From contig NZ_FOOA01000001.1 in the NCBI RefSeq assembly GCF_900113065.1, positions 372,001 to 436,000 on the forward strand: DNA of 64,000 nt, read 5' to 3'. This document shows, piece by piece, positions 1,218 through 31,225 of the stretch. Position 1 is the first letter of the stretch. Each line of letters begins with the position of its first letter. The notes beneath the pieces were generated by a model. The model was not told where the DNA came from, searched no databases, and saw nothing but the letters and a program-made list of their open reading frames with translations. The position numbers were made by a program, and so were the translations under genes. The stretch comes from Aureimonas phyllosphaerae. Lineage in GTDB: Bacteria > Pseudomonadota > Alphaproteobacteria > Rhizobiales > Rhizobiaceae.

Positions 1218-4200
1218 TCAGGCGTCCTTGCGCTCCAGAAGCGCGCGGATCAGCGGCTCGTCGACCTTGCCGGTCGCCTCGAGGCCGGCCTTGCCCTGGA
1301 ACTGGCGGATCGCCGCTTCGGTCCGGGCGCCGACCTTGCCGTCCGGCTGGCCGGGATCGTAGCCGAGCTTGATCAGGATCGCCTGGACGTTGCGGATGGC
1401 GCGGCTCATGTCGACCGAGGCCGTACGGCCGGCGGTCTCGGACCAGTCGTCCGGGATCTCGACCGTGTTGGCGGTCTCGACGCGCGGCTGCGCGCTCCAG
1501 CTGGCGATTTCGGTATCGAGCGCCTGACGCTGCTCGGGCGACATGGTCTTGCCGACCTCCTGCATCTTGGCGGCGGCGTCCTTGTCGCCCGCCGATGCCA
1601 CGATGCCGAACCAGCGGTAGGACTTGGCGAGGTCCTGCTCGACGCCGGCACCGCGGGCAAACAGGATGCCGAGGTTGTACTGGCTGTCGCGCATGCCGTG
1701 GTCGGCGGCCTGGATGAACCACTTGGCGGCGTTCGCCGGCTCCGACTTGCCGTCGATCCCGGTGGCATAGAGCACCGCGAGGTTGTGCATGGCGCGCACA
1801 TTGCCCTGCTCGGCGGCCAGGAGATACCAGTCGCGAGCCGTGGCCGCGTTGCGCTCCACGCCGTTGCCCTTCTCGTAGAGCGTGCCGAGGCTGTACTGCG
1901 CCGGCGCGAAGCCGCGCGTCGCGGACTGGGCGAACCAGGCGAGCGCCGCTGCGGGATCGCTCGGCGCGTTGCGCCCTTCCATCACGCGCAGGCCGATCTC
2001 GAAAAGGGCCTTCGGGTCCTCGGCGCTGACCGCCTTGGCGAGCGCCTCGGACGCGATGCCTTGGGGCAGCGCGGGCATGGCGCCACGGGCCGCTTCGGGA
2101 AGCTGCTGGCGCACCGAGGCGAGAAGCGCGCCCGGCTCGACGGCAGCAGGCGACGCCACCGCGGTCTCGACGAGCGGCGCGGGGCTCGGCTCGGCGACCG
2201 ACGTCTGCGAGGGGACATCGACCATGTCCGGACGAGCCGGCGCGGTTTCCGCGAAGCCCTGCGGGATCGCCGGGGCGGCGGGAGCCTCCGCGACGGCGGG
2301 ACCGGTTTCCGTCATCGACGGCATCTCGGCAGGCATGGGCTGGCGAGCGAGGGCGGCGACATCCACCGGCTCGGACGATACCGCGGATGTCTCGGGCACG
2401 GCGACCGGTGCGGGTGCGGCGGCAACGGTGGCGGTCTCGCCGAGACCGACAGCGGCCTCCTGCTTCGGCGACAGACGATCGATGCCGAACGGCACGGCCA
2501 TCAGGGCCAGAAGCACGGCGCCGACGCCCATCAGGATCGGCTTGCGGCGGTTGGCGGCCGGCTTGCCGGCCAGATCCTCGCCGCGCTCCTCGCGCTCGCG
2601 CAGGGCCTCCGCCTCGGCCGCGGCGGCCATGGCGGCCTTGCGGGCGGCGGCGATGAAGTCGGCCTTCGCCATCGGCTCGGGCGCCGGCTCCTCGCCGCGC
2701 TGCTGCTGGCGGACGCGCTCGATGAGGGCGGCGATGTCGGGCGCGCCGGAGCCCGGCTCCAGCGGGCGGTTGGCCTCGCGCGAGATCAGGCTGTCGGCCG
2801 GGTCGAGCTCGGGCGCCTCGAGAACCGCAGCCTTAGGCTCGTCGGCCTCCGACGAGGGGGCATCGACCGAGGTCGACTCCTCGACGATCGGGGTCGGGCG
2901 GATGCGCTCGGCAAGGCTCGGCACGGCGCTGGCGTCGGCCTTCGTGCGCGCGGTCCGGCGTCCGATATGGCGCTGGAGCGCGGCGCGCAGGCCCTTGGGC
3001 TCCTCGTCCGCCGCCGCGTCGGCCGCAGCCGCGCGCTCGGCGAAGACCGGCGCGTCGGACGCGGCGACGATCTCCGCGGCCGGCGGCGTCACCGAAACCG
3101 GAGCCTCGGCGATCGGGGCGGTCTCGATCGTGGCGGGACGCAGCATCGGGGCCGCCGCACGCTCGACCGGCTGGCCGCGCATTTCCTGCTCGATCAGGGT
3201 GAGACGCTCGACGATCTTCAGAAGCGTCGCATGGACCGCGTCGAACACGCCGAAGGTGCGCTCGTCGCTCTCGCGGCACAGGGCCTCGAGGTTGCGCATG
3301 TCCTGCGCGAGTTCCTGGACGAAGCCGGTCTCGCGACGCGCGTCCTCGACCCTCATGCGCCGCACAGCCTCTTCGGCCGCCGCACGGGCCGCGGCGACGA
3401 CGTTGTCGCGGTTCTCGTCGAGCTGGCGCTCGATCGCATCGAGACGCTGGCTGACGGCGCCGGCATCCTCCACCGACGCACCCGGCACGCCGGCCAGGAT
3501 CTGCGTCATGCGGGTGATCTGCGTTTCCAGGGCGACGATGACCTCGGGGTCGACGACGCGCGCCGAAGCGGAGTCCTCGAGACGCTGTGCGATCGCCGTC
3601 AGGCGCTCTTCGAAGGCCGCCGTGTCGGCACCGCCGGTGCGGCGGAACAGGGTCTCGACGCGCTCGGCCAGCGTGTCGATCCGCTCGCCGAGATCGGACG
3701 TGGGCGCGGCCGCGCCGATGTCCTCGACGCGCTCGGCCAGCGCCGCGATCTGCGACGACAGGGCTTCGACGCCGCGCTGGTCGGCCAGCTTGTCGATCCG
3801 GCCGGTGAGGTCGGCGACGCGCGCCTCGATGCGCTCCACCGGCGCCATGTCGATCTGCGCGACCGCTGGGGCGGGCTGGCTGGCGAGCGCCGCAGCGATC
3901 TCGTCGAGGCGCTCCTCGAGAAGGGCGAAATGCGACAGGTCGGGCTCGCGCACCTCCTGCGTCAGGATCTCGATGCTCTGGGCAAGCGCGGCGACGCGCA
4001 TTTCGAGCTGGTCGATCTGCAGGATTTCGGGCATGCGCATGAGCGCGTGCTCGATCTCGCGCATCCGCTCGCCGAGACGGCTGACGCCGGCCTCCAGCTC
4101 ACCGATGTCGAGACGCTCGGCGAGCGCCTCGAAGCGGGCGTCCATCGCCTCCTGGCCATTCTCGGCGACGATCGCGTCGAGCTTCTCGCGCAGGCCGTCA

Positions 4201-5126
4201 AGCTCGGTGCGTAGGACGTTGGCGACCGACTCCTCGGCCTGCACGCGGGCGGTATCGAGGTAACGGGCCTCGAACTCCTCCCAGCGCTGCTGGACCGCGA
4301 GCACCTGGTCTTCCGTGGCGAGCGAACGCAGCGAGGTGCGCAGGCGCTCCAGTTCGACCTTCAGGTTGCGCTTGGCTTCGGCGTCAAGCGACATGTGCTC
4401 GGAGATGCGCGTCTCGAACGCGTCCCAGCGGCGCTTGACGGCCTCGAGCGACTCCTCGCGAGCCATCTGCCCGACCATCAGGGCGACCGCGTCGAGATCA
4501 CCGCGCAGCGCCTCGAGCGACGCCTGGTCGGCGGTGCCGGCGGTCAGCTCGGTCAGCTGCTCCATGATCTCGAAGATCTCGGCGCCGATGCTCTCGGGCG
4601 CGTCGCGCTCGGAGATCATGCGCTTCAACTCGGCGAACGAAGTCTGGAGATCGCGGATGCGCTCGTCGGTGTCGGTGCCGATGCGGCTCTGGATGTCGCC
4701 GCGCAGAAGGGTCAGCTCGGCCGCCAGATCCTTGATCAGCGCGATCGAGGCATTCTGCATCTGCAGCTGCTCGACCTCGGCAGCGATGGTGCCGATGCGA
4801 CGGCCGGCGGCGGCCCGGCGATGCGGCTCGTCCGCCTCGGAGGCGAGCACGCTTTCGACGGCAACGTTGGATACGGCGGCGGTCAGCGAGGGACGGCGGG
4901 CACGGCGCGCCTCGGCCGCGACGCGCAGCTTCTCACCGGCCGATCGGGTCGCGGTGGCCTCCGCCGGCTCCTCGGCCGGCGCGGCCGCGGCCGTCTTGGT
5001 GGACGACAGACGACTCAACCGCTGCTCCAGATCTTCCAGCGTCTTGCTGAGCGACGAGAACGACCCGTCCGACGCCGCCGGCGCATCCTCGGGACGCTGC
5101 CTCACCTTCGCTTCGTTCTGCCCCAT
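1218..5126 (-). CDS. podJ: PodJ-like polar organizer: coiled coil, one TM helix, Sel1 repeats, peptidoglycan-binding domain
   Basis: A protein of 1302 residues. From about residue 20 to 700 it is a long, charged, heptad-rich coiled coil with many LEERLDEIA-type repeats. A Pro/Ala/Glu-rich linker follows, then one membrane helix near residues 862-884 (ILMGVGAVLLALMAVPFGI). The periplasmic part has an Ala/Pro linker, about four Sel1/TPR repeats (residues ~1034-1195, e.g. AQYSLGTLYEKGNGV) and a C-terminal PG_binding_1 domain (~1243-1295, NVQAILIKLGYDPGQPDGKVG). This is the architecture of PodJ, which marks the new pole in Caulobacter and Agrobacterium. It is longer than Caulobacter PodJ, mainly in the coiled coil. 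AAGGAG sits seven bases before the ATG. A CtrA-type site lies 76-90 bp upstream of the start. Confidence 0.8.
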   Translation of the reverse strand: MGQNEAKVRQRPEDAPAASDGSFSSLSKTLEDLEQRLSRLSSTKTAAAAPAEEPAEATATRSAGEKLRVAAEARRARRPSLTAAVSNVAVESVLASEADEPHRRAAAGRRIGTIAAEVEQLQMQNASIALIKDLAAELTLLRGDIQSRIGTDTDERIRDLQTSFAELKRMISERDAPESIGAEIFEIMEQLTELTAGTADQASLEALRGDLDAVALMVGQMAREESLEAVKRRWDAFETRISEHMSLDAEAKRNLKVELERLRTSLRSLATEDQVLAVQQRWEEFEARYLDTARVQAEESVANVLRTELDGLREKLDAIVAENGQEAMDARFEALAERLDIGELEAGVSRLGERMREIEHALMRMPEILQIDQLEMRVAALAQSIEILTQEVREPDLSHFALLEERLDEIAAALASQPAPAVAQIDMAPVERIEARVADLTGRIDKLADQRGVEALSSQIAALAERVEDIGAAAPTSDLGERIDTLAERVETLFRRTGGADTAAFEERLTAIAQRLEDSASARVVDPEVIVALETQITRMTQILAGVPGASVEDAGAVSQRLDAIERQLDENRDNVVAAARAAAEEAVRRMRVEDARRETGFVQELAQDMRNLEALCRESDERTFGVFDAVHATLLKIVERLTLIEQEMRGQPVERAAAPMLRPATIETAPIAEAPVSVTPPAAEIVAASDAPVFAERAAAADAAADEEPKGLRAALQRHIGRRTARTKADASAVPSLAERIRPTPIVEESTSVDAPSSEADEPKAAVLEAPELDPADSLISREANRPLEPGSGAPDIAALIERVRQQQRGEEPAPEPMAKADFIAAARKAAMAAAAEAEALREREERGEDLAGKPAANRRKPILMGVGAVLLALMAVPFGIDRLSPKQEAAVGLGETATVAAAPAPVAVPETSAVSSEPVDVAALARQPMPAEMPSMTETGPAVAEAPAAPAIPQGFAETAPARPDMVDVPSQTSVAEPSPAPLVETAVASPAAVEPGALLASVRQQLPEAARGAMPALPQGIASEALAKAVSAEDPKALFEIGLRVMEGRNAPSDPAAALAWFAQSATRGFAPAQYSLGTLYEKGNGVERNAATARDWYLLAAEQGNVRAMHNLAVLYATGIDGKSEPANAAKWFIQAADHGMRDSQYNLGILFARGAGVEQDLAKSYRWFGIVASAGDKDAAAKMQEVGKTMSPEQRQALDTEIASWSAQPRVETANTVEIPDDWSETAGRTASVDMSRAIRNVQAILIKLGYDPGQPDGKVGARTEAAIRQFQGKAGLEATGKVDEPLIRALLERKDA

Positions 5127-5201: not shown

Positions 5202-5216
5202 TTAACGAAGGGTTAA
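5202..5216. promoter_or_regulatory. Candidate CtrA box upstream of podJ
   Basis: TTAA (5202-5205), seven bases, TTAA (5213-5216): the TTAA-N7-TTAA core of the CtrA consensus. It lies in the 270-bp gap between podJ (minus) and the MerR gene (plus), closer to podJ. A further TTAA-rich run (GGTTAAGGATTTAAAAACC) follows at about 5228-5250. Binding is inferred from the motif alone. Confidence 0.5.
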
Positions 5217-23590: not shown

Positions 23591-24486
23591 ACCGGCTTTT
23601 CCTTCTGAGCCTGCTTCCAAAGCTTGTCGCGCTCTTTGAGAACCTTGTCCCAGCGCTCCTTGGCGGCGGGGGTGAGCTTGACGACCATCCGGTCGGCAAG
23701 CCGCATGTCGACGGAGACGATGTCGCGGGCGAGCAGACCCTCGTTGCGGTCGACGCGCATCACGGTCGCGGCCGCCTCGATCGGGTCAAGTTCGGGCAGG
23801 CGGATCACGACGCCGTTGTCGAGGCGCAGATCCCAGCGCCGGTCGCCGACGCGCACATAGGCCCTGATTCGCTGGTCGAGCTCGGGGACAAGCGCCATCT
23901 TGTCGAGAATGTCGGCCGCTTCTCGCGCCGCGCCCGGACCCACCACGAACGGCAGGTCGGTGAATCGCGTCGTCGCATAGGGCACGATCTCGCGGCCGTC
24001 GTGGTCGACGATCCAGAGATCCTTGTCGCGCTGCCAGAGGGCGAAGGGCTTCTTCTCGACCAGCGCGATCTTCACGCGGTTCGGATATTCCTTCTCGATC
24101 GTCGCGCTTTCGATCCAGGGCATTGCCTCGATCGCCTCGCGCGCGGCGGTTACGTCAAGCGCCGGAAGCGTCTGCGCGCCGGCCATCCAGAGCGTCTGGA
24201 GGACGTCGATCTCGCTTGTCTCCGAGTAGCCCGTCACGTCCACCGTATCGATCGACAGGCCGAGCGGCTCGGCCACGGCATCGATGACGGCCGTCGTATG
24301 GCTGCCGAGGACCATGCCGTAGATCGCGGTCGAGCCGAGGAGGCCGGCGGCGATCGTGCGGAAGCGCGGCAGCGGCAGGTCGCGCGCGTTCTTGATCCAG
24401 ACCACGGTCTTGCGGCCGAGGCGTTGGAGGCGCAGCACGACGGGGCTGACGCGCTGGAACATCGGGGCGTCGTTCAGCGACCGCAT
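23587..24486 (-). CDS. ftsQ: Cell division protein FtsQ
   Basis: Bitopic divisome protein of 299 residues. A basic cytoplasmic tail of about 50 residues is followed by a membrane helix ([17 protein letters not shown]), then the POTRA domain ([46 protein letters not shown]) and the FtsQ beta domain. The C-terminal extension is Lys-rich. The ATG at 24486 overlaps the 3' end of ddl by 13 bases, and the stop overlaps ftsA (ATGA). The larger open frame to 25416 is the ddl shadow. Confidence 0.95.
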
Positions 24487-25397
24487 GAGGCGTCCCTCAC
24501 CATCCACGAGAGCAGCTCGCCGAACGAGTGGCCGGCGACCTTCGCGATGTCGGGCACCAGCGAGGTCGGCGTCATGCCGGGCTGGGTGTTGACCTCGAGC
24601 CAGACCAGTTCGCCCTTCTCGCCGAAGCGGTCGTCGTAGCGGAAGTCGGAGCGCGACACGCCGCGGCACCCGACGGCGCGGTGGGCAGCGAGCGCCGCCT
24701 CCTGCACGCGCTTGGCGATGGCGGGCGGGATCTGTGCCGGGATCACATGCTGCGAGCCGCCGGGCAGATACTTCGAGTCGTAGTCGTAGAAGGCATGGCC
24801 CTCGGTCGTGATCTCGCAGACCGGTAGCGCCACGTCGCCCATGACGGCGCAGGTGAGCTCGCGGCCCGGCACGAAGCGTTCGACCATGACCTCCTCGCCG
24901 AAGGTCCAATCGGCGCCGTGCAACTGCTGAGGCGGATGCTCCTGGTCGGCGCGCACGATGAGGACGCCGAAGGACGAGCCCTCCGCGATCGGCTTCACCA
25001 CGTAGGGCGGCGCCATGACGTGGGACTTCGCGACCGCACGGCGGTCGAGGATCTTGTGATCGGCCACGGGGACGCCGGCCGCCTTGGCGATCGTCTTGGC
25101 CTTCACCTTGTTCATGGCAAGCGCCGAGGCGAGGACGCCCGAATGCGTGTAGGGGATCTGCAGGAACTCGAGGATGCCCTGGATCGTCCCGTCCTCGCCG
25201 AAGGGGCCGTGCAGCGCATTGAAGGCGACGTCGGGCGCGAGGTCTTTCAGCACCGCGGCCACGTCGCGGCCGACATCGACGCGCGTGACGCGGAAGCCCT
25301 CGGCTTCCAGCGCGTCGGCACAGGCCTTGCCCGACGACAGGCTCACCGGCCTTTCGGACGAGAAGCCACCGAACAGCACTGCGACATGCGAGGTCAT
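24474..25397 (-). CDS. ddl: D-alanine--D-alanine ligase
   Basis: ATP-grasp ligase of 307 residues making D-Ala-D-Ala for the peptidoglycan stem peptide. Motifs are [39 protein letters not shown], the ATP-binding [21 protein letters not shown] and the metal-binding [20 protein letters not shown] 25397 (MTSHVAV) fits the family; ATG 25412 is possible. It is the first gene of the ddl-ftsQ-ftsA-ftsZ block, with a CtrA-type site 54-69 bp upstream. In related genomes murB normally precedes it directly; here four unrelated genes intervene. Confidence 0.96.
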
Positions 25398-25450
25398 CGA
25401 CCGGGATTCCATGCATTGAAGGTCAGGAACCATTCATCGCCTGCAGATGG

Positions 25451-25466
25451 TTAAGCGGTGGTTAAC
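25451..25466. promoter_or_regulatory. CtrA box upstream of ddl-ftsQAZ
   Basis: TTAA (25451-25454), GCGGTGG, TTAAC (25462-25466): an exact match to the full TTAA-N7-TTAAC CtrA consensus. It lies in the 274-bp divergent gap between ddl (minus) and the PruR-like gene (plus), 54 bp from the ddl start. CtrA control of ftsQA/ftsZ is established in Caulobacter; here it is inferred from the motif. The rest of the gap contains another GTTAAG half-site near 25512 and no gene. Confidence 0.65.
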
Positions 25467-25671
25467 CGAGTGCGGCGGAAGCAAGAAAATCGTAAGGCCG
25501 TTTGGAGAGGGGTCGTTAAGGGTTGCGCCCGCCATCGGACGGTCGGAAGCGGCGACAGATGCCGCAGCGATATCTTCTATGTTGCGGCGCGAAACATTCC
25601 TGTCGAAAACTCACATCTTCTTCAGAACCCGGCGATAACGTGCGGCCATCCCCCAAGGGAAAGGCCGAATC

Positions 25672-26172
25672 GTGAACCGCAGAACTCTTCTGACTGGGAT
25701 GGGCGCGCTTGCGCTCGCAATGCGGATCGTTCCCGCCTCGGCCGCCGAGCCGATCCTCACGCTTCGTGGCGCGTTCGCCCGTGCGGGGGCCGACGGGACC
25801 AAGAGTTTCAGCCTTGCGGATCTCGACGCCCTGCCACAGACGACGTTCCGCACCACGACGCCGTGGCACAGCGGCCCGGTCGAATTCTCCGGCGTCTCCG
25901 TCGCCGACTTCCTCGCGGCGATGGGCGTGCCGCCGACCGAGGGCTCGATGCAGTTGGTCGCCCTCAACGACTACGTGGTCGACACGAAGGCGATTGATCT
26001 CACCTCGGGCGAGGCCCTTCTAGCCACCCGTATGAACGGCCAGCCCATGGCCGTGACGGACAAGGGCCCGGTCTTCGTCGTCTTCCCCTTCGACAGCCGG
26101 ACGGAACTCCAGCACCAGTCCTACTACAGCCGCGCCGTCTGGCAGCTCGCCGAGATCGACCTCGCCCCATGA
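25672..26172 (+). CDS. pruR: PruR-like periplasmic pterin-binding (SUOX-fold) protein
   Basis: Exported protein of 166 residues: Arg-rich start, signal helix (LLTGMGALALAMRIVPASAA), then a short molybdopterin-binding (sulfite-oxidase fold) domain with FSLADLDALPQTTF, FSGVSVADFLAAMG, LVALNDYVVD and GPVFVVFPFD. It has no cysteine at all, so it cannot carry the Mo-coordinating Cys of a sulfite oxidase. Its stop overlaps the ATG of a GGDEF-EAL gene (ATGA). This pairing matches Agrobacterium PruR, which binds pterins and acts on DcpA's periplasmic domain. Annotation as a molybdenum oxidoreductase would mislead. The start is GTG 25672. Confidence 0.75.
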   Translation: MNRRTLLTGMGALALAMRIVPASAAEPILTLRGAFARAGADGTKSFSLADLDALPQTTFRTTTPWHSGPVEFSGVSVADFLAAMGVPPTEGSMQLVALNDYVVDTKAIDLTSGEALLATRMNGQPMAVTDKGPVFVVFPFDSRTELQHQSYYSRAVWQLAEIDLAP

Positions 26173-28079
26173 GCGCAGCCGGCGGCCCGCGGCCCTTCAC
26201 GTTGAGCGTCCGCAAGGTCAGCTATGGCCTGACCTGCGTCACGGCGGTGCTGGCGCTTCTGGTCGTCGTGTCGTCGATCCTCGTGGTGCGCTATCAGCGC
26301 CAGATCAGCGAAGCGTCGCAGTACAACGTCACGTTCGACTACTCGCAGACCGCCGCCGAAATCCTGCGCCTCCAGGTCGCCCTCAAGGATGTGATCGGCG
26401 GCGCCGACCCGGCGCAGATCAAGCTGCGGCACGACATCCTCGTGAACCGGCTCGGGATCATCCGCGACAACGCCTTCGCGACGCGCCACCAGCTCACCGA
26501 GACAGGCGACCGCCTCGCCGAGGCGCTGCGGCAGCTCGAGCCGCTCCTCGCCGACCCGTCTGATACCGCCAATCTCCAAACGGCCTACGACCTCCTCGGA
26601 CCTCTCACCACGCCCATTCTGCGGCTCGCCTCGCGCGCCCACGGTGAAGCTGGCGACATCGTCCTCGGCAACCAGACGACGCTGCGCCAGATCATGGCGA
26701 TCGTCACCGCCGTCACGATCGTCCTCGTCCTCGTCGGCATGGTGCTCGTCGGCTTCGTCCTCCACCAGAACCGCCGGCTCGACAGCATCTCGCGGACCGA
26801 CGGACTGACGGGCCTCGCCAACCGCCTCGGCTTCGACGCCGACCTGCGCAAGGTCGACGGCAAGCCGGCTGCCGTCGTCCTTGTCGACGTCGATCATTTC
26901 AAGACCATCAACGACACGCTCGGCCACAGCGTCGGCGACGGCGTGATCGTCGAGCTCGCGTCGCGGCTGCGCACCGCCGGGGCCGACGCGGACACGATCG
27001 CCCGGATCGGCGGCGACGAGTTCGCCATCGTCTTCTCGGGCGAGGCGGCCGAGGCGCGAAGCCTGTCCTGCGCCGACGCGGTGCTCCGCAGCATGGATGA
27101 GCCCTGCCGCGTCGCCGGCACGGAGGTGCAGGCCAATGTGACGATCGGCATCGGTGCGCAGGAGGCGAGCCAAGGCGCCGTGCTCCTGAACGACGCCGAC
27201 ATCGCGCTCTACGCCGCCAAGGGCGAAGGCCGTGGTCGCTATCTGCGTTTCCGGCCCGAGATGAAGCAGGCGTTCCTGCGCGAGCAGGCGATCGAGGACG
27301 CGCTGCGCCGCGCGGCCGCAGCCGGCGACTTCTCGCTCGTCTACCAGCCGATCGTCGACCTGTCCGACGACCGAACCGTCGGCTTCGAGGCGCTCCTGCG
27401 CTGGCAGCATCCCGAACTCGGGTCGATCTCGCCGACGGAGTTCATTCCAATCGCTGAGCGAAGCGGCCAGATCGAGGCGATCGGGCGCTGGGTGATCGAG
27501 GAGGCGTGCCGCGAGGCGAGCCGCTGGCCGTCCCACCTCTATGTCGCCGTCAACGTGTCCGCGCGGCAGCTTCTCGACCAGAGCTTCATCGCCCAGTCCT
27601 GGGCGGCTCTCGCGCAGAACGGCCTCGATCCCAGCCGGCTGGAGATCGAGATCACCGAGAGCACCCTGATCGTCGACGACGCGACCGTGCTCGACCTCGT
27701 ACACCAGTTGCGGGCGCTCGGCTGCCGGGTCTCGCTCGACGACTTCGGGACCGGCTACGCATCCCTCAGCTACCTTCAGCGCTTCCCCTTCGACAAGATC
27801 AAGATCGACCAGTCCTTCCTCCGCGGCGACGGGGTCGCAGCCGGCGGTCATGCGATCATCGCCACGATCTGTTCGCTCGCGGAAGTGCTCGATCTGCGGA
27901 TCGTCACCGAAGGCATTGAGACCGCGGACGAACTTGCCGCGGTTCGCCGCGCGGGCAGCCACTTCGGGCAGGGCTACCACTTCGATCGGCCGCTGCGCCC
28001 CGAGGACGTCCTGAAGCGCATCGCCCGCGACGACCACGATCGTCCGTTCCCCCACGCCGCCAACGCCACGGCCGCCTGA
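26169..28079 (+). CDS. dcpA: Dual GGDEF-EAL c-di-GMP enzyme, DcpA-like
   Basis: Inner-membrane protein of 636 residues. Two helices (about 18-38 and 176-198) enclose a periplasmic domain of some 135 residues, the likely contact for the PruR-like partner. The cytoplasmic GGDEF domain has an intact GGDEF at 281-285. The EAL domain has EALLR at 407-411 and DDFGTGYASLSYL, with metal and catalytic acids present. Both synthesis and breakdown of c-di-GMP are therefore possible. The inhibitory I-site is AxxD (272-275) rather than RxxD, so product inhibition is probably lost. In Agrobacterium, DcpA switches direction under pterin control and governs attachment and biofilm. Confidence 0.8.
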   Translation: MSAAGGPRPFTLSVRKVSYGLTCVTAVLALLVVVSSILVVRYQRQISEASQYNVTFDYSQTAAEILRLQVALKDVIGGADPAQIKLRHDILVNRLGIIRDNAFATRHQLTETGDRLAEALRQLEPLLADPSDTANLQTAYDLLGPLTTPILRLASRAHGEAGDIVLGNQTTLRQIMAIVTAVTIVLVLVGMVLVGFVLHQNRRLDSISRTDGLTGLANRLGFDADLRKVDGKPAAVVLVDVDHFKTINDTLGHSVGDGVIVELASRLRTAGADADTIARIGGDEFAIVFSGEAAEARSLSCADAVLRSMDEPCRVAGTEVQANVTIGIGAQEASQGAVLLNDADIALYAAKGEGRGRYLRFRPEMKQAFLREQAIEDALRRAAAAGDFSLVYQPIVDLSDDRTVGFEALLRWQHPELGSISPTEFIPIAERSGQIEAIGRWVIEEACREASRWPSHLYVAVNVSARQLLDQSFIAQSWAALAQNGLDPSRLEIEITESTLIVDDATVLDLVHQLRALGCRVSLDDFGTGYASLSYLQRFPFDKIKIDQSFLRGDGVAAGGHAIIATICSLAEVLDLRIVTEGIETADELAAVRRAGSHFGQGYHFDRPLRPEDVLKRIARDDHDRPFPHAANATAA

Positions 28080-28089
28080 ACGCCCGGCG

Positions 28090-28998
28090 TCAGTCCACCC
28101 ATTTCGGGTCGGCCGTGAAGGCCACCGTCAGCCAGCGATCGCGCGGATCGCCGCCGATCGCGTGCGCGATCTCCTCGCGCACGCGGTCGAAGTCGGCGAG
28201 CGACTGGCGGGAGTGGTCGTGCGGCACCACGAAATGGAACTCCAGCGTGCGCGATCGCCCGACCTTGGCGACATAGGTGCGCACCTCGCGGAAGCCGTGA
28301 CGCGCGACGATATCGGCGGCGACAGCACGAGCCTTGGCATCGAGCTCCGGCGGGGCCACGAGGAAGATGTCCTTCAGGGCATCGAACACGGTGCGCAGCG
28401 GCACCGGGATGAGGCATAGCGTCAGGATCGCAAGGACGGCAGGATCGACATACGGGGTCCAGCCCTCGTAGACGCTGCCCTGCAGAAGCGCCGCGATCAC
28501 GAAGGCGACGAGGAGCGCCGCGGTGATCAGTCCCGCCATCGCCCAGCCCTTCACGTCGAGCGCCAGAAGCTCGGACCGGATCTCGCGGTTCTGCCGACGC
28601 CCGATCAGGAACATCGCGAGGCAGATCGCCACGATCACGGCGGCATAGGCGATCGCCCAGCCGAACTCGAGCGGCCGCCCGCCGGACATCAGCGTGCCGA
28701 CGGCGTTGACGAACGCATAGAGCGACAGGAGCGACAGGAGCCCGCCGTTGAACAGAAGGACGATCGGCTCGAGATGCCAGAAGCCGAGCTGGAACCGACC
28801 GCTCGTCTGCCGGGCGATGAGGCGCGAAACGAGGAGCGCCATGCACGTCATCGACGCGTCGACCACCGAAAACATGCCGTCGAAGGCGATCGACAGCGAA
28901 CCGGACAGGATGCCGAACACGACGCCCGACGCCCCGACCACGAGGGTTGCGGCGATCGATCGCTTCAGGGCGGCTTGTTCTCGCGTCGCGGCTGTCAT
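28090..28998 (-). CDS. Cation diffusion facilitator family transporter, divergent
   Basis: Protein of 302 residues with six predicted membrane helices and a C-terminal ferredoxin-like domain (LEFHFVVPHDHSRQSLADFDRVREEI), the CDF architecture. In helix 2 the usual DxxxD site reads DGMFS (followed by VVD), and in helix 5 the HxxxD site reads LLALD, with Leu in place of the first ligand. The metal site is therefore not that of zinc exporters such as FieF, and the substrate is uncertain. ATG 28998 has AAGAG five bases upstream. It converges on the DcpA-like gene with 10 bp between stops and is divergent from the metallophosphoesterase. Confidence 0.75.
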   Translation of the reverse strand: MTAATREQAALKRSIAATLVVGASGVVFGILSGSLSIAFDGMFSVVDASMTCMALLVSRLIARQTSGRFQLGFWHLEPIVLLFNGGLLSLLSLYAFVNAVGTLMSGGRPLEFGWAIAYAAVIVAICLAMFLIGRRQNREIRSELLALDVKGWAMAGLITAALLVAFVIAALLQGSVYEGWTPYVDPAVLAILTLCLIPVPLRTVFDALKDIFLVAPPELDAKARAVAADIVARHGFREVRTYVAKVGRSRTLEFHFVVPHDHSRQSLADFDRVREEIAHAIGGDPRDRWLTVAFTADPKWVD

Positions 28999-29152
28999 CG
29001 TCACTCTTGAATCACGGATCGGCGGATCACCGCTTCCCTATCGCTTGGACGTCCCCAACAACAGGTCGCGATGCTGTACCGCCGGAACCTAACGCAGCGT
29101 CAGCTGTTCGGCAGCCGAGCGCGATCACGCGTTGGTGAAACGGGAAACGGCA

Positions 29153-30268
29153 ATGATCACCTGGCTTCAGTTCGGCGACCTGCATGTCTGCGAGCAGGAC
29201 GGCTGGGCAAGCCTCGACTTGTTCCGTCAGCTCGTGGCATCCGCCCGCGACAATCTCGCCGGACAGGTCGATCTGGCGGTGCTGCCCGGCGACAACGCCA
29301 ATCACGCCACGGAGGAGCAGTTCGAGCGGATCGCCGAGGCCGTCGCGCCGCTCGGCATCCCGCTGCAGGCGATCCCCGGCGACCACGATTTCGAGGCCGG
29401 CAACCTCGACGGCTTCTATCGCCATCTCGCGCGCCAGCCCCTGCCCTATGCGGTCACGGTCGGCGAGACGCGCATTCTCTTCCTCGACATCGTCTCGGCC
29501 GGGAGCGGCGGCCCGGACTTCCGCCTCGGCTCGAAGCAGACCCTCTGGCTGCGCCGTGAGCTCGACGCCGCCGATGCGGCCGGGCACGCCGCCGTCGTCT
29601 TCATGCACGCCTATCCCGGCGACCTGCACGCCGGCACCGAGGAGATCGCCTCGCTCCTCGCATCCGGGAACGTGCGCTTCGTCGGCACCGGCCACACGCA
29701 CTACAACGAACTCCTCAACGACGGGCGCGTCGTCTACGCTGCGACGCGGTCCACCGGCGAGATCGAGGAGGCCGGCGGTCCCGGCTTCTCGATCGGGGCG
29801 CTGGATGGCGACGCGGTCAGCTGGCGCTTCAAGCCGCTCGACGCACCCTGGCCCTTCGTGCTGGTCACCTCGCCCTCCGATCTTCGGCTGATGACGGATC
29901 CGCAGTCCCGCGACCAGGTGCCGGAGGGCGAGTTTGCGATCCGCGCCCGCGTCTTCGGCGCCGACATCGCGTCCGTGTCGGCGCGCCTCGGCGATCGGGA
30001 GATCACGCTGCGGCGCGAGGGCGCCGCTTGGATCGCGCCGTCAGGCCCGGTCGAGCCGGGGCTGCACCGCCTCAGCGTCACCGCGCGATCTTCGAGCGGC
30101 ACCGAAGACACCGATCACGCCGAGATCCTGGTCCGCCCGCCGCGCGAGCGACCGCGTCGGGGCGATGCCTTCGCGCTCGGCCGCGACATTCATTCGGTCG
30201 GCCCCTGGCCGGGCCGCGGCATTCCCGGCGGCCAGCTCGGGCCCAACAAGAACGGGCTGAAATGGTAG
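29153..30268 (+). CDS. Metallophosphoesterase, calcineurin-like
   Basis: Protein of about 371 residues. Residues 1-230 form the phosphoesterase core with the metal motifs GDLH, PGDNANH, IPGDHDFE, FMHAYPGD and GTGHTHYNE in order. Residues ~245-345 look like a beta-sandwich (Ig-like) domain (FAIRARVFGADIASVSARLGD), and the tail is Gly/Pro-rich. Similar proteins include cAMP phosphodiesterase CpdA/Icc, but the substrate is not predictable. No signal peptide is seen. ATG 29153 (MITWLQFGDLH) fits the family; a TTG/GTG slightly upstream is possible. It lies inside the dcw region, on the opposite strand, with 9 bp to the murB stop. Confidence 0.85.
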   Translation: MITWLQFGDLHVCEQDGWASLDLFRQLVASARDNLAGQVDLAVLPGDNANHATEEQFERIAEAVAPLGIPLQAIPGDHDFEAGNLDGFYRHLARQPLPYAVTVGETRILFLDIVSAGSGGPDFRLGSKQTLWLRRELDAADAAGHAAVVFMHAYPGDLHAGTEEIASLLASGNVRFVGTGHTHYNELLNDGRVVYAATRSTGEIEEAGGPGFSIGALDGDAVSWRFKPLDAPWPFVLVTSPSDLRLMTDPQSRDQVPEGEFAIRARVFGADIASVSARLGDREITLRREGAAWIAPSGPVEPGLHRLSVTARSSSGTEDTDHAEILVRPPRERPRRGDAFALGRDIHSVGPWPGRGIPGGQLGPNKNGLKW

Positions 30269-30277
30269 GCTCGGCCT

Positions 30278-31225
30278 CTACGGGCTGAAGGGCCGGACTT
30301 CGGCGCCTTCGGCAAACCGGCCGAGGCGCTTGATCTCCCATTCGAGGAGAATGCCGCTTGTGGCGTAGACGCGCTCGCGCACCGTCTCGCCGAGAAGCTC
30401 CAGATCGTGCCCCGTGGCTTCGCCGACATTCAGCATGAAGTTGCAGTGGAGCGCCGACATCTCGGCGCCGCCGATGCGAAGGCCGCGACAGCCCGCGCGG
30501 TCGACCTCCTTCCAGGCCGAGGTGCCCGGCGGGTTCTTGAAGGTCGACCCACCGGTCTTCTCGCGCACCGGCTGCACGGTCTCGCGATGATGCTGCACCT
30601 CGTCCATCGCGCGGCGGATTTCGTCCCGGGGGCTCTCCGGCCCCTCGAAGATCGCTGACACGAAGATGAGGTCCTCGGGCGCGTCGGCATGGCGATAGGA
30701 GAAGCCCATCTCGGACTTCGTCAGCACATGCACCCGGCCCTGCCGGTCGAGCGCGCGCGCCTCCACGAGCCGGTCGGCCGTCTCGACCCCGTTGGCGCCG
30801 CCGTTCATGCGGATCGCGCCACCGACGGAGCCTGGAATGCCGTGCAGGAAGTGGAAGCCGCCGAGCCCCGCTTCGAGCGCCACGGCCGCCACGCGCTTGT
30901 CGCTCGCCGCCGCGCCCGCCCGGATGCGTCCCTCGCCGATCGCCTCGACCTCGCCGAAGCCCTTGGCCGGCAGGCGCAGCACGACGCCGCCGATACCGCC
31001 GTCACGGATCAGGAGGTTGGAGCCGATGCCGACGACGGTCAGCGGCACCACGGCCGGCAGCGCCGCGAGGAACGCCGCGAGATCCGCCTCGTCGGCGGGC
31101 TGGAACATCAGGTCCGCCGGTCCGCCGGTGCGGAACCAGGTGATCTTGGAGAGGTCCGCACCGGCCTGCAGCTTGCCGCGCAGGCCGAGGGCGGGATCGG
31201 ACAGCGCAGCGAGAAGCTCGCTCAA
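30278..31225 (-). CDS. murB: UDP-N-acetylenolpyruvoylglucosamine reductase
   Basis: FAD enzyme of 315 residues that forms UDP-MurNAc. Visible motifs are [55 protein letters not shown] and the C-terminal [10 protein letters not shown] (catalytic Ser) with [10 protein letters not shown]. It starts at TTG 31225, which overlaps the murC stop as TTGA, a rare start justified by the coupling and by GGGGGG just upstream. It is the last gene of the mraZ-to-murB block. Confidence 0.95.

Follow-up and report, generated by a model that had tools for sequence, protein, structure and literature searches.

A PruR–DcpA type gene pair with a twin-arginine leader in Aureimonas phyllosphaerae, a probable Tat-exported and PruA-independent variant of the pterin-responsive c-di-GMP switch

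The window analysed here is a stretch of 64,000 nucleotides of Aureimonas phyllosphaerae DNA, in which two overlapping genes on the forward strand diverge from the cluster ddl-ftsQ-ftsA-ftsZ on the reverse strand. The features of the locus are as follows.

25672..26172, + strand: pruR-like ORF with a GTG start, 166 aa, without Cys, encoding an exported protein of the SUOX-fold pterin-binding type
25672..25743, + strand: leader of the PruR-like protein with a twin arginine according to a motif rule (NRRTLL, residues 2-7; RR, residues 3-4)
26169..28079, + strand: dcpA-like ORF encoding a membrane GGDEF-EAL protein of 636 aa
26298..26669 (approximate), + strand: sensor domain of the DcpA-like protein, periplasmic and helical (residues 44-167, approximately), its membrane segments placed by eye from the sequence and helix pattern
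26334..26360, + strand: FX7E motif FDYSQTAAE in the sensor (F56, E64), which replaces the WX7E of DcpA-type sensors
25451..25465, no strand assigned: CtrA-type box TTAA-N7-TTAA, which belongs with the ddl-ftsQAZ promoter and not with pruR
24474..25433, - strand: ddl, the divergent neighbour, with its ORF start at 25433 and a likelier true start at 25397

The pruR-like and dcpA-like ORFs are joined by an ATGA overlap and follow the pruR-to-dcpA order of a two-gene operon. In Aureimonas sp. Leaf324 the block is found in the same order with 87-99% protein identity, and since the pair and its neighbours are conserved there, the arrangement is not a chance reading. The original prediction had described a Cys-free, exported SUOX-fold protein overlapping a GGDEF-EAL protein, a description that is confirmed by the ORFs, by the Pfam matches and by the conservation in Leaf324. 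The genome holds a second PruR at G000:C29:219415, which is 57% identical to that of the window, belongs to the same clade and is followed by its own GGDEF-EAL gene, the pair spanning G000:C29:219415-221847 (L003 7410-9847). Close behind this second pair lies an ORF that resembles, by eye, a methyl-accepting chemotaxis protein (L003 10264-12252). Across the whole genome there are 24 EAL matches, including partial ones at contig ends.

The PruR-like protein matches the Pfam family Oxidored_molyb with 32.6 bits against a cut-off of 24. When solved structures were searched with phmmer, the best chain was Agrobacterium PruR (7kos, E = 1.9e-32), followed by the other PruRs 7rkb, 7kp2 and 7kom, with one sulfite oxidase far behind (0.00029). 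The AlphaFold model has a mean pLDDT of 76.7, with the leader poorly modelled, and in a structure search it matches 7kos_D at E = 1.5e-15 and a TM-score of 0.83 by target length, sulfite oxidases being a distant fold match. In its SUOX fold, its size of 166 aa and its closeness to the solved PruR chains the protein is like a PruR, and it has an N-terminal secretion signal that is of twin-arginine type by rule; the sequence and fold matches to 7kos thus bear out the earlier assignment of an exported PruR-type protein. The pterin-binding Asn, Tyr and Trp of PruR are named in a 2026 review (PMC13259868, passages in sections 7 and 11), and the window protein carries these conserved pocket residues as N99, Y101 and W157. 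Across 98 PruR rows the trio reads N/Y/W in 93, D/Y/W in four and N/F/W in one, and the exported protein is predicted to bind pterin.

Both output domains of the DcpA-like protein score above their Pfam cut-offs (GGDEF, 119.1 bits; EAL, 242.8 bits). The catalytic motifs GGDEF (281-285), EAL (407-409) and DDFGTG (524-529) are intact, and ADAD (272-275) occupies the place of the RxxD inhibitory site. In the first 205 residues, two likely membrane helices flank a helical periplasmic domain (model pLDDT 80.8). An hhalign comparison of five sensors from the window clade with eight W-type sensors gave 99.7% (E = 7.9e-26, 194 columns, 23% identity), this being a repeat without row L145, a W-type row contained in an earlier comparison that had given 99.8%. 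Together with the Pfam matches this upholds the proposed DcpA-type sensor fused to GGDEF-EAL. A structure search with the sensor model returned no match at E <= 0.001, the best being a weak helical bundle, NarQ, at E = 5.1e-3, and with matches so weak no fold claim is built on them.

According to section 8 of the review, WX7E occurs in the vast majority, not all, of DcpA-type domains (PMC13259868). The window sensor has FX7E in its place, and both sensors of the genome carry F in this motif. Within the PruR clade described below, the residue is F in 22 of 24 rows and Y in two, with E at the second site in all 24; outside it (n = 74) W is found in 65 rows, F in three and Y in two, the other four having no usable sensor. 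The exchange of F for W could change or abolish the docking of PruR.

A tree was calculated from 98 leaderless PruR cores, of which two come from this genome, 14 from a search of the genus, 19 and 31 from the family search, 29 from the order search and three are named loci. The family-search cores leave out the 15 weakest matches (E from 1.9e-8 to 9.6e-6), while the 29 loci are drawn from an order search with matches in 91 of 297 genomes. The window protein falls in a 24-row clade with an SH-aLRT of 97, in a tree made by a quick method over 142 columns, with no bootstrap and a midpoint root; the position of rows L222 and L234, which are on a long branch, is uncertain. These two rows (G323, G316) represent a divergent type of PruR pair, in which the pocket N is replaced by D, the sensor motif has Y, the leader carries a twin arginine and the genome lacks PruA.

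The N terminus of the window PruR reads M-N-R-R-T-L-L-T-G and the second PruR has S-R-R-Q-V-V, to be set beside the Tat motif SRRxFLK (PMC3712460, abstract); the Tat pathway moves folded proteins (PMC3712460 and PMC7317946, abstracts). Under a rule of RR-x-small/hydrophobic-hydrophobic and then nine uncharged residues, a twin arginine is found in 22 of the 24 clade leaders (0.54 expected from shuffled leaders) and in 5 of the 74 outside (1.21 expected). This rule was loosened after the sequences had been seen, a first version with 13 uncharged residues being too strict; by that version the counts are 10/24 in the clade, with the window protein missed, and 3/74 outside. Fisher's test of the clade against the rest gives p = 4.4e-15, a value that ignores shared ancestry. 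TatC is encoded in the genome (231.7 bits), so that by sequence both the leader and the translocase of a Tat substrate are present, and the window PruR is probably exported via Tat. The review makes no mention of twin-arginine leaders or Tat (PMC13259868). A literature search for PruR with twin-arginine found nothing related by title; the primary PNAS paper on PruR lay outside this search and may discuss Tat leaders.

The Tat-type leader, the F/Y sensor motif and the absence of PruA look like traits of one clade with one ancestry. Independent-pairs tests on the tree do not support an association of Tat with F/Y (three pairs on starred branches, median p 1) or of Tat with PruA loss (two pairs on starred branches, median p 1). 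On a sensor tree with the motif residue masked, clade membership needs two changes and the starred branches force one, and with so few changes PruR and the sensor appear broadly to share one history. Clade genomes without PruA form six groups (the window genus, G305, G316, G323, G376 and G381), and those with it two (Agrobacterium and G384). When groups are instead counted by leader, seven with the Tat type lack PruA against two that have it, one of the two resting on the doubtful row L227, and the figures for leaders of other types are nine against 27. A tie of PruA loss to the Tat type is not clean, as W-type rows without a twin arginine are also found in PruA-less genomes. Tat-type PruR and PruA coexist in two Agrobacterium genomes, and G404 and G409 of the window genus also carry W-type pairs. 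In a BLAST comparison with the cores, the 7kos segment is nearest to L212, L076, L221 and L213 (72.6-77.0%), W-type rows without a twin arginine from PruA-bearing genomes; what is known of PruR from Agrobacterium thus stems from outside the window clade.

PruA itself, the pteridine reductase presumed to produce the signal, was sought with the NCBIfam model NF006597, which is named only SDR family oxidoreductase and has a cut-off of 281 bits. The model exceeds its cut-off in 72 of 101 family genomes. The PruA motifs TGX3RXG and YX3K (PMC13259868, section 5) are present in all ten loci read among these 72, and likewise in both loci of two Agrobacterium genomes that score 384.1 and 372.7 bits, which supports NF006597 as picking out PruA-type enzymes. 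None of the 21 genus genomes rises above the cut-off, the best match in the present genome reaching 152.7 bits. Neither a pattern search nor inspection by eye found TGX3RXG as the N-terminal motif at any of the genome's 57 short-chain dehydrogenase places; the one stray TGX3RXG string, in L089, shares its reading frame with an ordinary TGAASGIG. With E. coli FolM as the query, the best match in the genome has only 39.5 bits and 29% identity. The PruR search, for its part, matches 13 of the 21 genus genomes. The original prediction had envisaged an Agrobacterium-like circuit with PruA, a proposal that is not supported: the absence of pruA, which the prediction itself had named as refuting it, holds for this genome and for 21 of 21 genomes of the genus. 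Pairs of PruR and DcpA without PruA do exist, for instance in Vibrio cholerae (PMC13259868), so the missing PruA alters the circuit and does not refute the pair.

The closest worked-out relative is the PruR–DcpA system of Agrobacterium tumefaciens/fabrum (PDB 7KOS; PMC13259868), which has in common with the window pair the two-gene overlap, a small, Cys-free, exported SUOX-fold protein with the N/Y/W pocket, and a helical periplasmic sensor on a GGDEF-EAL protein. The two PruRs are about 43% identical, and the window pair differs in its twin-arginine leader, its FX7E motif and its lack of PruA. Vibrio cholerae (PDB 7KP2; PMC13259868) likewise has pairs without PruA and two pairs per genome, its PruR being 33% identical to that of the window. 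The periplasmic module is also common to the PruR-DTB sensor kinases (PMC13259868), in which the output is a histidine kinase rather than GGDEF-EAL. The sulfite-oxidase enzymes MsrP/YedY and SorT share the SUOX fold as a distant match; unlike these, the window PruR is much smaller and has no Mo-ligating Cys.

From these comparisons we propose, at a probability of roughly 65%, that the pair is a pterin-responsive c-di-GMP switch of the PruR–DcpA type belonging to a distinct clade, in a Tat-exported and PruA-independent variant. Of the original interpretation, the PruR-type protein and the DcpA-type sensor are retained, and the PruA circuit and the link to division are given up. In such a switch PruR would leave the cytoplasm by Tat through its twin-arginine signal and hold a reduced pterin in its truncated SUOX pocket. 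On the Agrobacterium model, pterin-bound PruR would then dock onto the helical domain that the DcpA-like protein exposes in the periplasm and move the protein from c-di-GMP synthesis towards breakdown, a direction likewise taken from that model. As PruA-type reductases are absent from the genus, the ligand would have another cytoplasmic origin or an extracellular one. It could be made by another reductase, for example dihydrofolate reductase, as suggested in the review (PMC13259868), or, in our own view, it could come from plants.

The boldest reading of the clade makes PruR a pterin carrier, which would fold and load in the cytoplasm, be exported in the loaded state via Tat and report the cytoplasmic pterin pool to the periplasmic sensor. 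This prediction is tentative, and we hold it to be possible rather than probable. Tat also carries proteins without a cofactor, so that the leader alone is no proof of loading. The PruR–DcpA case that has been worked out depends on PruA, and the route by which pterins cross the membrane is unknown according to the review (PMC13259868). Loaded export, if true, would be a route for pterin into the periplasm and would explain how the pair works without PruA or free extracellular pterin. PruR–DcpA signalling as such, which governs surface attachment by sensing pterins beyond the inner membrane, is already published and widespread; the window clade is an unstudied branch of it, and with its twin-arginine leaders, altered sensor motif and mostly PruA-less genera it offers a natural test of pterin transport. 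Should PruR be exported loaded, the transport question would be answered in at least this branch; should it not, one would have to ask where PruA-less genomes obtain the ligand.

The main competitor keeps the same pair and alters the export, with PruR leaving by Sec or by either route and, in line with the Agrobacterium model, acquiring free pterin from the periplasm or the environment, the RR being an ancestral SUOX leftover without functional weight. Pterin binding is periplasmic according to the review (PMC13259868), two clade members (L060 and L064) have plain Sec-type leaders on a protein otherwise the same in kind, and basic pairs occur in Sec leaders, the five qualifying rows outside the clade among them. 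Against this, RR is kept in 22 of 24 leaders that have otherwise diverged widely (pairwise identity per position 0.07-0.37), and the residue before it is polar in all 22. Leaders of the clade further have a weaker hydrophobic core (a median of 1.76, the others having 2.24), with a basic residue near the end more common (14/24 against 16/74). We regard this competitor as unlikely without being negligible. Far less credible is the idea that the PruR-like protein is a subunit of a Mo-cofactor oxidoreductase with an incidental GGDEF-EAL neighbour, which draws on the Pfam family name and on the distant fold match to sulfite oxidases. The protein has no Cys at all, it has W at the position discussed in the review (PMC13259868), and solved PruRs match it far better than any sulfite oxidase, on which grounds identity as a Mo-cofactor enzyme is rejected. 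The neighbour does not look incidental either, since a long ORF also stands behind pruR in the other rows read, and in 90 of the 98 the sensor motif column reads W, F or Y and the E column shows E, D, S or A, with four rows lacking a usable sensor.

Alongside the PruR–DcpA switch we considered the further proposal that the shared ddl–pruR gap, with its CtrA box, lets the pair couple surface attachment to division. The genes are divergent, the exact box lies 207 bases upstream of the pruR start, and a similar box is present in Leaf324. Exact TTAA-N7-TTAA occurs twice in the 64-kb window and in none of 100 shuffles, one of the two sites being that in the gap. However, the exact box precedes the ddl start by 53-57 bases in 21/21 genus genomes, whatever the neighbour, and is absent within 400 bases upstream of pruR at 22 of 24 loci, the two exceptions being the pruRs that adjoin ddl. 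Next to ddl, pruR is found in just two of the 21 genus genomes (this one and G403), and within the ddl–murB interval in three. In the nearest relative, G409 (ddl identity over the query, 100%), ddl and pruR are separated by a PTS EIIC gene; in 14 of the 21, the interval ends at murB within 1,500 bases and contains no pruR, and the remaining four have no pruR in the 10-kb stretches read. The original prediction was right that the gap contains a box, located here at 25451-25465, and that ddl is divergent; common control of pruR and ddl is rejected, as the box tracks ddl and not pruR. A link of attachment signalling to the division promoter is accordingly not supported and seems to us highly improbable, the ddl-ftsQAZ neighbourhood of the pair being apparently incidental. 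Most likely, the pair would have inserted near czcD, with the EIIC gene being lost afterwards.

Across the genus the ddl–murB interval (window 25433-30278) varies, holding PTS EIIC, cation efflux, metallophosphoesterase or pruR-dcpA genes. The other exact TTAA-N7-TTAA site, at 5202-5216, lies 76 bases upstream of a gene for a 1302-aa coiled-coil protein (ORF 1218-5126, - strand), whose product has apparent Sel1-type repeats and a peptidoglycan-binding end and is PodJ-like by eye. A block resembling GAAAATCGTAAGG lies between the CtrA box and pruR, near 25480-25500; with minor differences it recurs upstream of ddl in the 21 genus genomes, and it may be an additional element of the ddl promoter.
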